Source: a virus. Taken from it: a stretch of 54,711 nucleotides of DNA. The stretch's first letter is position 1. Each line of letters starts with the position of its first letter. The translations under genes were made by a program, and so were the position numbers. The stretch is taken from positions 1-54,711 of IMG/VR virus record IMGVR_UViG_3300019742_000004; one strand, 5' to 3'. A model generated the notes under the pieces. That model did no database searches, had not been told where the DNA came from, and was given only the letters and a program-made list of their open reading frames with translations. Shown here piece by piece: positions 2,062 through 32,174 of this stretch.

Positions 2062-2079
2062 CTTGCCGTTAACGTGATT

Positions 2080-2103
2080 GGTATATAAACAAAATTTATT
2101 CAC
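2080..2103 (+). repeat. Left arm of perfect 24-bp inverted repeat
   Basis: GGTATATAAACAAAATTT... (24 nt) is exactly complementary to 2417-2440. The two arms flank the gene at 2131-2424. Directly after the left arm lies a separate 12-bp palindrome, GGCAAATTTGCC (2104-2115), of the type that can be an operator. Confidence 0.85.
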
Positions 2104-2130
2104 GGCAAATTTGCCACAAAAGATATTAAA

Positions 2131-2424
2131 ATGAAAGAACGTTTAAAATTACTACGTGCGGAGGCAAGCGACCTCCAAGAAAAACTTAGTAACAACAGTA
2201 AAGAACAAACAGAATTGATGATTGCTATTTACAAAGACGATACTAAGCTTGCTGTGGGCGATAAAGTGCTTGTTGACGGCAAAAAGAAAGGTGTAATCGA
2301 AAGCTTTGTCAGAAAATACAGTGAGGTTATGCCTAATGTGCAGTATTACAAGAAAGACGGAACGCTTGGTAAGAGATATGAGCGTGTGTGGGGTTTTCAG
2401 AAAATAGAAAAACTTAGTGAATAA
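2131..2424 (+). CDS. Hypothetical protein with coiled coil and KOW-like segment
   Basis: 97 residues. Residues 1-35 form a charged amphipathic helix, probably coiled coil; the rest contains LAVGDKVLVDGKKKGVIESF, which looks like a small beta-barrel of the KOW/SH3 type. That reading is weak. The gene sits exactly inside a perfect 24-bp inverted repeat (2080-2103 and 2417-2440), and its stop codon lies within the right arm, so the gene and repeat form one unit. Confidence 0.65.
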   Translation: MKERLKLLRAEASDLQEKLSNNSKEQTELMIAIYKDDTKLAVGDKVLVDGKKKGVIESFVRKYSEVMPNVQYYKKDGTLGKRYERVWGFQKIEKLSE

Positions 2425-2440
2425 ATTTTGTTTATATACC
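2417..2440 (+). repeat. Right arm of perfect 24-bp inverted repeat
   Basis: The exact reverse complement of 2080-2103; it includes the last codons and the stop of the enclosed gene. An RNA spanning both arms could fold into one very long-range stem, or the DNA arms could serve as inversion or insertion ends. Confidence 0.85.
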
Positions 2441-2442
2441 TT

Positions 2443-2526
2443 GTTGTGGTGTCGTTGCTTCTTTTGAAAGCGTGATGACGTTCAATGATTGCATATACTT
2501 ATTTATTATTTGCAATGCACCACAAC
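2443..2526 (+). repeat. Long imperfect hairpin at gene boundary
   Basis: GTTGTGGTGTCGTTGC (from 2443) pairs with GCAATGCACCACAAC (to 2526): nine perfect outer pairs, then a bulge and four more, around a loop of about 50 nt. It fills the gap between the genes at 2131 and 2582 together with the right arm of the inverted repeat. It belongs to a set of similar hairpins at gene borders in this region. Confidence 0.6.
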
Positions 2527-3326: not shown

Positions 3327-3392
3327 GCACAACGGTGGCAATAAGATTAAGCGTAGCGACCCGTAGGGTTAATTTTATTGCGTGTTGTGTGC
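3327..3392 (+). repeat. Long imperfect hairpin at gene boundary
   Basis: GCACAACGGTGGCAATAA pairs with TTATTGCGTGTTGTGTGC, closing a loop of about 30 nt that also has TTAA arms. It lies directly downstream of the DUF551-like gene and resembles the attC-like elements at 11840 and 23223 in shape, though not in sequence. Confidence 0.6.
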
Positions 3393-3451: not shown

Positions 3452-4348
3452 ATGTGCGATGGCAAAAATGGCTTTGAAAAAGCCAAAAATAAAGACCTTT
3501 TTGGTAATGAAATAATAACTAACCCATTATTGCGAGATAAATTTATTGAGCCACCTTTTTCTATTTTAGATAGTAAAAGTGGAAGTTGGAAAAAAAGGCG
3601 TAATTTATGGAAAAATATAGGCATAAAAAGTGAAGTTGGCAGAGATGTTAAAAGTATTGGATTATCTAAAAGTATATTAAATATTGGTAAAAATCATAAA
3701 GTGCATGAAGGTACTAGTATTTTTGACCCTGCATTGTGTGAAGTGATATATCATTGGTTTATTCCAAAAAATGGTAATATATTAGACCCTTTCGCTGGTG
3801 GTTCTGTACGTGGCATCGTTGCTAATTATTTAGGATATAAATATACAGGCATTGATATAAGGCAAGAACAAATAAATAGCAATAGGGAGCAAGCTATTGA
3901 TATACTTGACATAAATAACCAACCTCAATGGTATGTTGGGGATAGTAACGAAGTATTGAATGAATTTAACACTTCTTTTGATTTTATCTTTAGTTGCCCC
4001 CCTTATGCAGATTTAGAAGTTTACAGCGATTTGCATGGTGATATTTCAAATATGAATTATGTTGAATTTATGAAAGCATATGAAGAAATAATTGCAAAGA
4101 GTTGTAATTTATTAAAAAGCGGTGGTTATGCATGTTTTGTAGTTGGTGAGGTTAGAGATAAAAAAGGTAATTACATAGGATTTGTCCCAGATACAATTAA
4201 TGCATTTAAGAAATGCGGAATGAAATATTATAATGAAGGTATTTACTTGCAAGGATTAGCAGGTGCTTGTATGACCGCAGGGAAGCAAATGGAATCTTCT
4301 AAAAAATTAAGAAAAATACACCAGAACATATTAATATTTAAAAAATAA
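3452..4348 (+). CDS. Site-specific DNA methyltransferase (N6-A/N4-C type)
   Basis: 298 residues. Motif I (SAM binding) is LDPFAGGSVRG at about 111-121 and the catalytic motif IV is SCPPY at 181-185; GIDIRQEQ at 133-140 fits motif II. The order I then IV fits gamma- or alpha-type amino methyltransferases. No restriction nuclease is adjacent, so it is probably an orphan methylase that modifies phage DNA against host restriction. A 100-nt spacer with a hairpin precedes it and a 49-codon gene follows after 4 nt. Confidence 0.85.
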   Translation: MCDGKNGFEKAKNKDLFGNEIITNPLLRDKFIEPPFSILDSKSGSWKKRRNLWKNIGIKSEVGRDVKSIGLSKSILNIGKNHKVHEGTSIFDPALCEVIYHWFIPKNGNILDPFAGGSVRGIVANYLGYKYTGIDIRQEQINSNREQAIDILDINNQPQWYVGDSNEVLNEFNTSFDFIFSCPPYADLEVYSDLHGDISNMNYVEFMKAYEEIIAKSCNLLKSGGYACFVVGEVRDKKGNYIGFVPDTINAFKKCGMKYYNEGIYLQGLAGACMTAGKQMESSKKLRKIHQNILIFKK

Positions 4349-4352
4349 AATT

Positions 4353-4502
4353 ATGACACGTTTAACAAGATTACAAAAACACGGATGGAATGTAGTTAAT
4401 TATATGAGTGGTAATGGTTGCCAAGCAACCAAAAACAACGGATTAACTAAAATTACAGGGAAAAGCATTACTGATTTGCATAGACAAATATTTTGTTATT
4501 AA
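4353..4502 (+). CDS. 49-residue basic small protein
   Basis: Begins MTRLTRLQKHGWNVVNYMSG and ends FCY; it starts 4 nt after the methyltransferase stop, so it is probably in the same transcript. Basic, with no known domain. Just after its stop, TGGCTTT/AAAGCCA (4503-4519) forms a small stem without a T tract. Confidence 0.55.
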   Translation: MTRLTRLQKHGWNVVNYMSGNGCQATKNNGLTKITGKSITDLHRQIFCY

Positions 4503-4548
4503 TGGCTTTTTCAAAGCCAAGAGGGAGGGAAATTTTAAAATATTTTGG

Positions 4549-4596
4549 GCAATATGGTACAATCTTTAATAAATGTACGGAACTAAGCCATATTGC
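4549..4596 (+). repeat. Imperfect hairpin at gene boundary
   Basis: GCAATATGG (4549-4557) and CCATATTGC (4588-4596) form a perfect 9-bp stem with an inner GTAC pair around a 30-nt loop. It is one more member of the gene-border hairpins between 2.4 and 4.9 kb. Confidence 0.55.
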
Positions 4597-4626
4597 ATAC
4601 AACGTAAATAATAAATACAGTACGAC

Positions 4627-4875
4627 ATGAAAGCAGAATTATTTGATATATTAACGGACGTTGAAAAGGGCAGAATTACCGCCACCGTAGCCACTACAAA
4701 AGTATTGGATTTATTTAGTGTTAGCGGTAGTATTGGTGATATGATCGAGGACAATAGAACTAGATGCCCTAAATGCAAAAGTCCAAACATAGATCTTCCG
4801 CTAAGACTTACAAATTGGAGCAATACAGGCAAAGCAAAATGCCAAGAATGCGGTAATGAGTTTCACGACTTCTAA
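4627..4875 (+). CDS. Zinc-ribbon small protein
   Basis: 82 residues. Two knuckles, CPKC (about 48-51) and CQEC (about 73-76), form a classic four-cysteine zinc ribbon in the C-terminal half; the N-terminal half is helical. The partner (DNA, RNA or protein) is unknown. An inner stretch of the gene (GTTAGCGGTAGTATT from 4718) is complementary to the sequence at its stop (AATATTACCGCTAAC), giving a 15-nt inverted repeat with one mismatch. Confidence 0.75.
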   Translation: MKAELFDILTDVEKGRITATVATTKVLDLFSVSGSIGDMIEDNRTRCPKCKSPNIDLPLRLTNWSNTGKAKCQECGNEFHDF

Positions 4876-4940: not shown

Positions 4941-5756
4941 ATGAGAAACTCTATACCTATTAGAAATTTAGAGGAATATATGTTTATAAAACAATATTCT
5001 AAAAATACTGTTGATAATTATATATCATGTATAAAAAATGTCTTGAAAAACTCTAACAAAGATGTATACCATTTAACAGTAGATGACTTTAATAATTATA
5101 TTATTAAAAGCAATAAATCATCTAGTTTTAATAACCTAGTTGTTAGTTCAGGTAAACTATTTTTTTATTATGGATTAAAAAGAAAATCAAATAATAAATT
5201 TTTACACAGACCTAAAAAATCTAAAAAAATAATAGAAATTTTAACACAAAAAGAAGTATGGAGTATTATAGATTCTATTAATAACATAAAACAAAAAAGT
5301 ATTATATCTGGTATATATCTTCATGGCTTAAGAATATCAGAGGTTCTGAATTTAAAGTACGAAAACATAGATAGACACAGAAAACTATTGACTATTAGAG
5401 AGGCTAAAGGTAAAAAAGATAGATTAGTCCCTTTAAATAAATTTTGGCTAGAGCACTTAGAAGTATATGCTAAGAAAATGAATCATAAAAAAGGTTATAA
5501 TGAACCAATATTTACTCCTTACTCTTTATCATCTATCAGAAGTACTTTAAAAAAGTACGCTAAAAAGGTAGGAATAAGAAAGAAAATATACCCTCATTTA
5601 CTTAGAGATACTTACGCGAGTCATTTATTACAAAGCGGCTTTGATATTTCGTTAATTCAAGAAATATTAGGTCATTCAAAAATATATACGACAAGGAAAT
5701 ACATACATTTTTCAGCGGTGAATATATCGGCTGTGTGCCTTAAGAAAGTAATTTAA
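4941..5756 (+). CDS. Tyrosine recombinase / integrase
   Basis: 271 residues with an N-terminal SAM-like core-binding domain (about 8-85) and a C-terminal catalytic domain (about 100-265). All catalytic positions are visible: R131 in HGLRISEVLNL, a Lys at about 158 in EAKGKKDR, H219 and R222 in HLLRDTYASHLL, H245 in LGHSK, and nucleophile Y254. It cuts and rejoins DNA at specific sites, for integration, excision, dimer resolution or inversion. The 50-nt repeat just upstream is a candidate substrate site. The size fits XerC/D-like and small phage integrases. A TTCTAAAC-class promoter follows the gene. Confidence 0.9.
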   Translation: MRNSIPIRNLEEYMFIKQYSKNTVDNYISCIKNVLKNSNKDVYHLTVDDFNNYIIKSNKSSSFNNLVVSSGKLFFYYGLKRKSNNKFLHRPKKSKKIIEILTQKEVWSIIDSINNIKQKSIISGIYLHGLRISEVLNLKYENIDRHRKLLTIREAKGKKDRLVPLNKFWLEHLEVYAKKMNHKKGYNEPIFTPYSLSSIRSTLKKYAKKVGIRKKIYPHLLRDTYASHLLQSGFDISLIQEILGHSKIYTTRKYIHFSAVNISAVCLKKVI

Positions 5757-11762: not shown

Positions 11763-11841
11763 ATACACGCCAGAAGCATACGGAAACCTTAAAACACTAT
11801 GCGATGCTTTAAAAGTAAGTTACTACACTTATAAAGCATAA
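11746..11841 (+). CDS. 31-residue small protein
   Basis: MIILNKYTPEAYGNLKTLCD..., ending SYYTYKA; overlaps the interrupted frame before it. The C-terminal part (KTLCDALKVSYYTY) looks like one helix pair of an HTH. Its stop codon touches the attC-like hairpin at 11840. Confidence 0.45.
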   Translation: MIILNKYTPEAYGNLKTLCDALKVSYYTYKA

Positions 11842-11931
11842 CGTAGATGCGGTATGAGTAGGCCGCTTTGTAGACTGCTCAAAATTTAGTAATAGCCTTG
11901 ATAGCGGCTTACTTATGACCGCTTGTTAGGC
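11840..11931 (+). repeat. attC-like hairpin, copy A
   Basis: Outer arms AACGTAGATGCGGTATG and TTATGACCGCTTGTTAGGC are nearly the same as at 23223-23320. The stem GCGGTATGAGTAGGCCGCT pairs with AGCGGCTTACTTATGACCGC. The 3' end GTTAGGC fits the integron R' box GTTRRRY. It starts at a stop codon and ends 17 nt before the next ATG, as a cassette recombination site would. Confidence 0.6.
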
Positions 11932-14531: not shown

Positions 14532-14708
14532 ATGAAAAATAAATTTCCAGAAAATAAAAAACTTAGCATAAAATACAGGTGCAAAGAAGACGGCGGTGTA
14601 TATTCTGCCGAACAAGCAAGTAATATGCCTAACAATCATTTCAGGTTAATAACTGAGAAAGGCAAAGAAATTGGTGAATTTGTAAAATGGAGTGATGAAA
14701 CTAACTAA
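14532..14708 (+). CDS. 58-residue hypothetical protein
   Basis: From ATG 14532 (gatATG); the frame is open further upstream but lacks a good start. Contains YRCKEDGGVYSAEQASNMP. It overlaps the methyltransferase gene by 14 nt. Confidence 0.55.
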   Translation: MKNKFPENKKLSIKYRCKEDGGVYSAEQASNMPNNHFRLITEKGKEIGEFVKWSDETN

Positions 14709-23220: not shown

Positions 23221-23222
23221 TT

Positions 23223-23320
23223 AACGTAGATGCGGTATGGTTAATAAAAAGCAACCACCGCAGCAGATTCAAAGCATTAAACTTCATTTGCTTTTTATTA
23301 ATTATGACCGCTTGTTATAC
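23223..23320 (+). repeat. attC-like hairpin, copy B
   Basis: The outer arms AACGTAGATGCGGTATG and TTATGACCGCTTGTTA are nearly the same as at 11840-11931, but the inner stem differs: GTTAATAAAAAGCAA here pairs with TTGCTTTTTATTAAT. Thus the fold is conserved while the inner sequence is not, as in integron attC sites. The interval 23187-23427 holds this, a GC hairpin and a promoter, and no gene. Confidence 0.65.
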
Positions 23321-23427: not shown

Positions 23428-23595
23428 ATGGAACGTAGAATTAAACCAGATGTACAGATAAAATTAGAACCAATGGAGTACATAAAAAGAAACGCAAAAA
23501 CGGAACACCATTTTAAGGGCGTACCAAAGAAATACAAGGTGAAAACTATTGAAAATGGAGAAGTTAATTATTACAAAAGTGGACTTGAAGTATGA
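23428..23595 (+). CDS. 55-residue basic small protein
   Basis: MERRIKPDVQIKLEPMEYIK..., ending YYKSGLEV. First gene behind the 23371 promoter (agatATG), 4-nt overlap with the next gene. Confidence 0.65.
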   Translation: MERRIKPDVQIKLEPMEYIKRNAKTEHHFKGVPKKYKVKTIENGEVNYYKSGLEV

Positions 23596-23747
23596 GCAAC
23601 TTAATTAAATGGAGCGAACTGAGCCGCATATTAAGCGGTTCGGATAACTCTATAAGACCAAATAAAATACCAAAGAAATACGAACGCAAGGTTAAAAGAT
23701 TACTTCGTTTGCTAGATGCGTGGGAGCGTTTGGCAAATGGGGTATAA
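23592..23747 (+). CDS. 51-residue small basic protein, paralogue of 32019
   Basis: LIKWSELSRILSGSDNSIRP then NKIPKKYERKV. Very similar to the protein at 32019-32174 (WSEVSRMLSG...IRPNKIPKKY). The pattern looks like a small DNA-binding helix pair and recurs in Bacteroidota phages. It may be a small regulator. Confidence 0.65.
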   Translation: MSNLIKWSELSRILSGSDNSIRPNKIPKKYERKVKRLLRLLDAWERLANGV

Positions 23748-23852
23748 CGATTAATTATATGGGTAGTGCAACCCTCTAAACTGCACGAAAGTTGATTAAA
23801 TGTAGAACCGTTCCCGTTTTATTTTTTGAGCGTGGGCATAAAATTAAATAGA

Positions 23853-24119
23853 ATGAATGAATTTAAAGAGAAAAACCCAGAAATGTACGAAGAAATGGTT
23901 AACCAAATTTGCGATAGAATTGGTTGTGACCCTGATGAAGTAAAAGAAGCTAAAAATGTTAGAGATGATTTAGGCTTTGATTCATTAGATGAAATTGAGA
24001 TGATAATGGATTGTGAGCAAATGTTTGGTATTACCATAACTGACGATGAAGCCGAAGCCACAAATGGGGATATGCTTGAAATATGCAACGGGTTACAGCG
24101 TGCGGTGGAGAAAAAATAA
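23853..24119 (+). CDS. Acyl carrier protein
   Basis: 88 residues from ATG 23853. Acidic four-helix ACP pattern: DRIGCDPDEV, DDLGFDSLDEIEMIM with the phosphopantetheine attachment Ser44 in DSLD, then FGITITDDEAEATNGDM in place of the usual FxIxIPDEEAE. Length and motif fit type II ACPs of fatty acid synthesis, modified by a host AcpS. No other lipid genes are nearby. Either it diverts host acyl chains, or it binds a host ACP partner. The upstream 105 nt contain no gene. Confidence 0.85.
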   Translation: MNEFKEKNPEMYEEMVNQICDRIGCDPDEVKEAKNVRDDLGFDSLDEIEMIMDCEQMFGITITDDEAEATNGDMLEICNGLQRAVEKK

Positions 24120-24168
24120 AACTTGCACAAACGCTGATTAAACGCACGTTGCATTACCTATATAATGT

Positions 24169-24250
24169 GTTAGCAGCTGGCTTTACTTCTTAAATGTGGT
24201 AAAGCTAGAAAACAAGCATAGGTATTAATTTATTTAAGCTTGCCGCTAAC
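24169..24250 (+). repeat. Nested hairpin in the 24120-24307 gap
   Basis: GTTAGCAGC (24169) pairs with GCCGCTAAC (24242-24250); inside, GGCTTTAC pairs with GTAAAGCT. The 188-nt gap between the ACP and Cys-rich genes holds this element and no gene. The orientation of GTTAGC/GCTAAC is opposite to that in the 11840 and 23223 elements. Confidence 0.5.
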
Positions 24251-24307
24251 GGTGTGAGTATGTTTAGTTGCGATACTGAACACAAAACTTAATTAAATAT
24301 TGATACT

Positions 24308-24535
24308 ATGAATAAAGCAGAAAGATTATTAAAAGGACTGAAACCGCAATTAAATATACTTGATGTTAGCTGTAGTTCTTTGAGACACCCAAAATGCAAA
24401 GGATTTAAAACGCCTGATGTTGGGTGGGGCAGTGACTATGATTGTGGTTACGACACTACAATAGACTGTGATGAATGTAAATATGGAGGCGGTAGAAAAG
24501 ACCCAGAAGCTAAATGTAATACGAATTACCGCTAA
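24308..24535 (+). CDS. Cys-rich small protein
   Basis: 75 residues. Seven cysteines, with the CDECKYGGG and CNTNYR regions at the C-terminus; probably binds zinc or forms disulfides. It ends within the 50-nt direct repeat, as the Cys-rich gene at 4627 ends right before its copy. Confidence 0.65.
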   Translation: MNKAERLLKGLKPQLNILDVSCSSLRHPKCKGFKTPDVGWGSDYDCGYDTTIDCDECKYGGGRKDPEAKCNTNYR

Positions 24536-32018: not shown

Positions 32019-32174
32019 ATGAACAATCTAATAAACTGGTCAGAAGTAAGTCGGATGTTATCAGGAAGCGCACAGAACATCAGGCCTAATAAAATTCCTA
32101 AGAAGTACGGTTACAAGATTAAGATATTGCAAGCGTTAATTGAGACTTGGGTTAAACTTATAAAAGAAAACTGA
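32019..32174 (+). CDS. 51-residue small basic protein, paralogue of 23592
   Basis: LINWSEVSRMLSGSAQNIRP then NKIPKKYGYKI. About half of its residues match the protein at 23592-23747, clearly by duplication. A small regulator is one guess. Confidence 0.65.
   Translation: MNNLINWSEVSRMLSGSAQNIRPNKIPKKYGYKIKILQALIETWVKLIKEN

Follow-up and report, generated by a model that had tools for sequence, protein, structure and literature searches.

A stand-alone acyl carrier protein gene within an attC-like hairpin element of a Bacteroidota-type tailed phage

We identified a complete acyl carrier protein (ACP) gene lying wholly within the loop of an attC-like hairpin element in a viral contig of 54,711 bases and 33% GC, referred to here as the window, meaning the whole stretch of DNA that was analysed. 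ACPs are the small arms that carry growing fatty acids in the cell. In the reading we favor, with a probability of roughly 0.55, the stand-alone ACP of this Bacteroidota-type tailed phage is accessory cargo of the hairpin element, is loaded by the host, and enters host fatty-acid metabolism. With such an ACP alone, and none of the enzymes, a phage would be able to act directly on the fatty-acid supply of its host. The setting of the gene, which the initial annotation missed, matters more than the lone ACP itself: an entire gene within a recurring structured hairpin suggests a route for Bacteroidota phages to gain or swap single accessory genes, and the swapped genes include DNA-modification genes that may help evade restriction.

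The record carries genes for a terminase, DnaB, SSB, YqaJ, NinB, KilA-N and a Xer-like recombinase, together with a gene at 3452 that resembles DNA methyltransferases and one at 14692 that more weakly resembles a methyltransferase. In its capsid protein the phage shares 28% identity with Polaribacter phage Freya and 27% with Danklef, and the relatives suggest a Bacteroidota host. The nearest relative found, IMG/VR contig 3300019755_000009 (G400), is collinear with the window phage, with identities of 58% for the portal, 66% for the prohead protein and 76% for NinB.

The acyl carrier protein and its relatives

The gene and its modification site are placed as follows.
23853 to 24119, plus strand: acyl carrier protein gene, ATG start, 88 amino acids, Ser44 in DSLD
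23982 to 23984, plus strand: codon of Ser44, the phosphopantetheine attachment residue, invariant in relatives

Judged by family models and predicted fold, this stretch of the plus strand encodes a real, intact ACP, as the initial annotation had proposed. The protein passes the curated cut-off of PF00550 (E 2.4e-8, 34.5 bits against 20.8), matches phrog_5934 "acyl carrier protein" (E 2.5e-12), and has as its top PDB match by phmmer (5.8e-13) the acyl carrier protein chain of the AcpS-ACP complex 4dxe. The proposed phosphopantetheine serine in DSLD (residues 43-46) and the intact helix II/III pattern were likewise borne out: the predicted structure (pLDDT 72.6, moderate) fits the four-helix ACP fold, with helices at 9-23, 44-58, 64-69 and 74-87 and Ser44 as the first residue of helix II. 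Foldseek aligned the model to solved ACPs with TM of about 0.7-0.8 and probability 1.00, the best E-value being 1.2e-3 and none below 0.001. The protein is acidic (pI 4.05, net charge -16). An antisense ORF at 23819-24154 on the minus strand is mere overlap and had no independent support.

The protein shares its fold, serine motif and acidic helix II residues with bacterial type II AcpP (PF00550), and in alignment it keeps D43, S44, L45, D46, E49, M52, F58, I62 and D64 of E. coli ACP, most of which are known contact positions of AcpS and fatty-acid enzymes. It differs from AcpP in having no fab genes found around it and in a helix III-IV loop two residues shorter than in most ACPs. NCBIfam ACP models also match, the best with E 8e-16, but all remain under their curated cut-offs (57.6 against 71 bits, 53.1 against 92, 47.2 against 70.45, and others likewise); this marks a divergent ACP and not a copy of host AcpP, and by the same equivalog and subfamily models the protein is classed as ACP-family and not as host-type AcpP. 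Identity to any relative found is about 30-49%, and single-protein scans of IMG/VR and the genome collection returned no close homologue. The initial annotation had named loss of the serine in relatives as a refuting result, and this was not seen: among relatives retrieved without requiring a serine, S44 is invariant, the IMG/VR pattern-search loci having been excluded from this judgment because the pattern demanded DSLD. When the window ACP is aligned with eight phage relatives and the E. coli protein, the invariant residues are D39, L40, D43, S44, D46, E49, M52, E55, F58 and D64.

Stand-alone ACPs had been recorded in phages before, including those of Cellulophaga and Olleya. We found ACPs encoded in 26 GenBank phage records and at 336 places in IMG/VR, where some of the ACP-bearing contigs have fab-like genes next to the ACP, resemble bacterial fragments and may be bacterial. 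The members of PHROG 5934 in Cellulophaga phage Nekkels, Olleya phage Harreka, Brevundimonas phage Bajun and Vibrio phage 1.187.O likewise stand alone in tailed phages and carry the DSLD serine, while being only 31-40% identical to the window ACP. All four are annotated as ACPs, and the hosts of Nekkels and Harreka are Bacteroidota. A title-phrase search of the literature found no study dedicated to a phage ACP, and the main text of the Nekkels and Harreka isolation paper leaves theirs unmentioned. In Pseudomonas phage HRDY3 (PQ015379.1, L255), two neighboring genes carry the acyl carrier protein annotation, and one of them is much longer than the other.

The claim that no other lipid gene lies nearby held among the 25 of 44 Pfam families listed for the window's 67 ORFs, and a direct search of the record found no AcpS/Sfp (PF01648). 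Since neither AcpS nor another lipid gene was found, the prosthetic group and the partners must come from the host. AcpS and ketoacyl synthase were each absent from all 16 ACP-bearing phage records checked. Neighbor clustering of 70 viral ACP loci and the window gave no widespread partner gene beside phage ACPs; the clusters were small families of 2-5 loci each, none in common with the window's neighbors, and nothing in the window or around the relatives indicated a specific ACP partner for the roles that the initial annotation had suggested, namely the steering of host fatty-acid or lipopolysaccharide synthesis or the modification of a phage protein. The ACP most likely acts in trans on host fatty-acid metabolism, a role that we infer from the absence of alternatives, because no conserved partner stands beside phage ACPs. 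Host AcpS would load the protein with 4'-phosphopantetheine, and the resulting holo-ACP would join the type II fatty-acid enzymes of the host, where it may add to, divert or buffer acyl chains during infection, presumably to the benefit of the phage. The gene itself probably arrived through recombination of the hairpin element.

The hairpin element and its family

The ACP gene is the sole gene of the element that encloses it.
23745 to 24172, plus strand: attC-like hairpin element with a 19-bp stem and the family motifs, its 375-nt loop containing the ACP gene
23745 to 23772, plus strand: left arm of the ACP element, TAACGATTAATTATATGGGTAGTGCAAC
24148 to 24172, plus strand: right arm of the ACP element, GTTGCATTACCTATATAATGTGTTA

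The evidence for this element is strong. It has the build TAACG...19-bp stem...GTTA, and the stem comprises 17 Watson-Crick and two G-T pairs, the latter at the family's G-T positions. Each family motif occurs once in the window, and the two flank the ACP gene, against an expectation of 0.0 for the left motif, whose spacer had been widened after the ACP copy was seen, and 0.065 for the right (24153 on). The pattern CTAACGGTGTGAGTATG gave three matches, with unrelated surroundings. With nothing but the ACP gene enclosed in an attC-like element bounded by hairpin arms, the reading shifts from a conserved phage function to exchangeable accessory cargo; we read the ACP as such cargo from its position in the element, and its movement is indirectly supported. 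At the equivalent place in G400, after the DnaA-C-like gene, there is a hairpin element with a different 96-aa ORF that has no ACP match. No ACP match was found elsewhere in that contig, which may be incomplete, leaving absence unproven. Unlike the window, the ACP loci of other phages with enough flank to be tested had no element motifs around the ACP. A small ORF is present in two copies, at 23592-23747 and 32019-32174 (MSNLIKWSELSRILSG.. and MNNLINWSEVSRMLSG.., respectively); the latter occupies a position conserved in G400, and the former ends at the left arm of the ACP element.

A scan for the pattern [TC]AACG, spacer, stem, loop, stem, spacer, GTT[AG], with no inner motif, returned seven elements on the plus strand of the window, none on the minus strand and none in ten shuffles. 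Besides the ACP element, the following were recorded.
2070 to 2446, plus strand: second gene-in-loop element, a 26-bp stem around a 97-aa ORF (2131-2424) of no known family
3330 to 3387, plus strand: short, weaker attC-like hairpin from the scan
11839 to 11928, plus strand: geneless attC-like hairpin, arms as in 23222-23317
23222 to 23317, plus strand: geneless attC-like hairpin upstream of the ACP element, arms as in 11839-11928, fold z -3.5
24247 to 24368, plus strand: attC-like hairpin downstream of the ACP element, its loop containing the start codon of a Cys-rich 75-aa ORF (24308-24535)

The element at 2070-2446, with ends TAACG...CTTGTTG, is the strongest hairpin element of the window. 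A further scan element, at 3946-4723, is doubtful and was discounted, since a methyltransferase gene contains its left arm and an alternative left end at 4600 can also pair with its right arm. Applied to Polaribacter phage P12002L and to G400, the scan returned six and three elements, respectively. A total of 69 came from 0.79 Mb of loci and none from 0.27 Mb of shuffles, a biased density in that most of these loci had been picked for holding the motif. Rfam had no match in the window or in eight element-bearing loci.

Two forms of arm recur in other genomes. The elements at 11839-11928 and 23222-23317 have the outer arms TAACGTAGATGCGGTATG and TATGACCGCTTGTTA in common and differ in their inner stems; the left arm of this subfamily occurs in five further viral contigs, the majority of which have the complete element. 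When 395 Bacteroidota-phylum genomes were searched for TAACGTAGATGCGGTATG with up to one mismatch allowed, none had it. The commoner left arm was present in 6 of the 395, against two matches of a reversed control pattern. The second form, TAACGGTnnGnnTATGnGTAGT ... ATTACnnATA ... GTTA, occurs in 51 stretches of viral contigs against about 7 from a crude 4^-17 expectation, and is enriched in viral contigs, the count being imprecise. Its left and right arms pair with a mean local score of 22.0, compared with 15.5 for upstream and 14.8 for foreign controls. At one variable arm position, 33 of 34 copies have a pair (T-A 17, A-T 9, G-C 3, C-G 3, G-T 1), against a maximum of 24 in 2000 permutations. 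The ACP element is a member of this family.

The loops are of three kinds, being geneless, holding a start codon whose ORF crosses the right arm, or holding an entire gene. Many are about 100 nt long and of the second kind, so that a leader is fused to varied proteins: the leader "...KALHIGGV" is joined in frame to different phage proteins (L214, L204, L217, L230, L233, L251 and others), and at L198 the leader MIEQPQKPTLPIHGV is joined to a C5 DNA methyltransferase. Entire-gene loops are few, holding the ACP, the 97-aa ORF at 2131-2424 and the genes of two elements in other loci.
L237, 9644 to 10535: element with an entire DNA methyltransferase gene (N6/N4) in its loop
L192, 1866 to 2778: element with an entire Mom-family gene in its loop

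Alternative explanations

The last two loops bear on an alternative in which the ACP is dedicated to a single modification enzyme of the phage or the host, one that acts on DNA, the tail or surface polysaccharide, and carries its acyl or aminoacyl group for that enzyme instead of for general fatty-acid synthesis. The presence of DNA-modification genes in the loops of the family would suit such a dedicated carrier, as would the window phage's own methyltransferase-like genes. We nonetheless consider it quite improbable, given that no acyltransferase, thioesterase or adenylation-type partner is among the 25 of 44 Pfam families listed for the window and that the ACPs of other phages have no conserved neighbor. 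It is unlikely, if less so, that the ACP is a captured gene presently useless to the phage. A passenger of this kind might well be single-copy, without a close homologue found, unmatched in G400 and located in an exchangeable region, all of which describe this gene; yet the frame is open and full-length, and its conserved positions are retained at only about 30-49% identity, which implies long selection somewhere. ACPs also serve as hubs beyond lipid synthesis, so the protein might act as a decoy that titrates a host ACP-binding regulator or toxin, as in SpoT-like stress signalling. Nothing in the sequence singles out this role, and we regard it as very improbable.

A different kind of alternative concerns the element and not the protein. 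The arms might be RNA control structures, in which a 5' leader pairs with 3' sequence or the early part of the coding region, instead of recombination sites. The two conserved G-T positions would be G-U pairs in a transcript, the left arms often form a local hairpin as well, and in many copies the right arm lies within the first codons of the downstream gene, so we hold this to be possible, and the foremost of the alternatives, while still rather unlikely. RNA control sits poorly with near-identical leaders to which different proteins are fused in frame right after the GTT end, with stems that enclose nothing, a start codon or an entire gene, and with the lack of any Rfam match. It sits poorly, too, with the attC sites that PMC9892861 reports in P12002L, a phage with hairpins of the same build at its methyltransferase genes.

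Comparison with integron attC sites

Qi et al. describe clusters of attC sites in phages; Polaribacter phage P12002L is among these, having DNA methyltransferase genes and two attC sites, of which one was active with IntI1 (PMC9892861). Hairpins of the form TAACG...TTGTTA, with the same build as the window elements, border methyltransferase genes in this phage, and the text consulted does not state which of them were assayed. A variable terminal structure, spacers that stay unpaired and a G that follows AAC are described features of attC sites (PMC2727003). The window elements resemble attC sites and phage CALINs, the latter as in P12002L (PMC9892861), in their AAC...GTT ends, the G after AAC, an unpaired spacer, and a variable stem and loop, and also in carrying small accessory genes and DNA methyltransferases as cargo.

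The likeness has limits. The TAACG...GTTA ends contain the AAC of R'', the GTT of R' and the G after AAC, but the full consensus RYYYAAC / GTTRRRY is not matched by the GTATAAC and GTTAGCA of the ACP element. Where attC sites have extrahelical bases on the R''-L'' arm, the window elements have none that is clear on the left arm; that of the ACP element pairs bulge-free, with G-T pairs instead, and the elements at 11839 and 23222 show, by eye, an extra base on the other arm. An integron places each cargo gene between successive sites, whereas the ACP lies inside the loop. The recombinases differ as well, an integron having an IntI integrase and the window phage the following.
4941 to 5756, plus strand: Xer/XerA-like tyrosine recombinase, matched by an integron-integrase model (integrase_gron) in two separate pieces, below cut-off

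This recombinase is of XerA/XerD type, with relatives in other ACP-bearing contigs (L021, L023, L063, L069). Canonical integron membership was rejected on the misfit of the R boxes, the loop cargo and the lack of IntI; it is for the R-box misfit, the lack of a clear extrahelical base, the loop cargo and the Xer-like recombinase that we name the elements attC-like and not attC. As a tentative generalization, which we think rather unlikely, Bacteroidota phages might carry structure-recognised hairpin cassettes of attC-like build that move single genes as loop cargo (ACP, DNA methyltransferase, Mom-like), while other copies give exchangeable genes a start codon and a short in-frame leader. Their movement might depend on an integron integrase of the host or on the Xer-like recombinase that the phage encodes.
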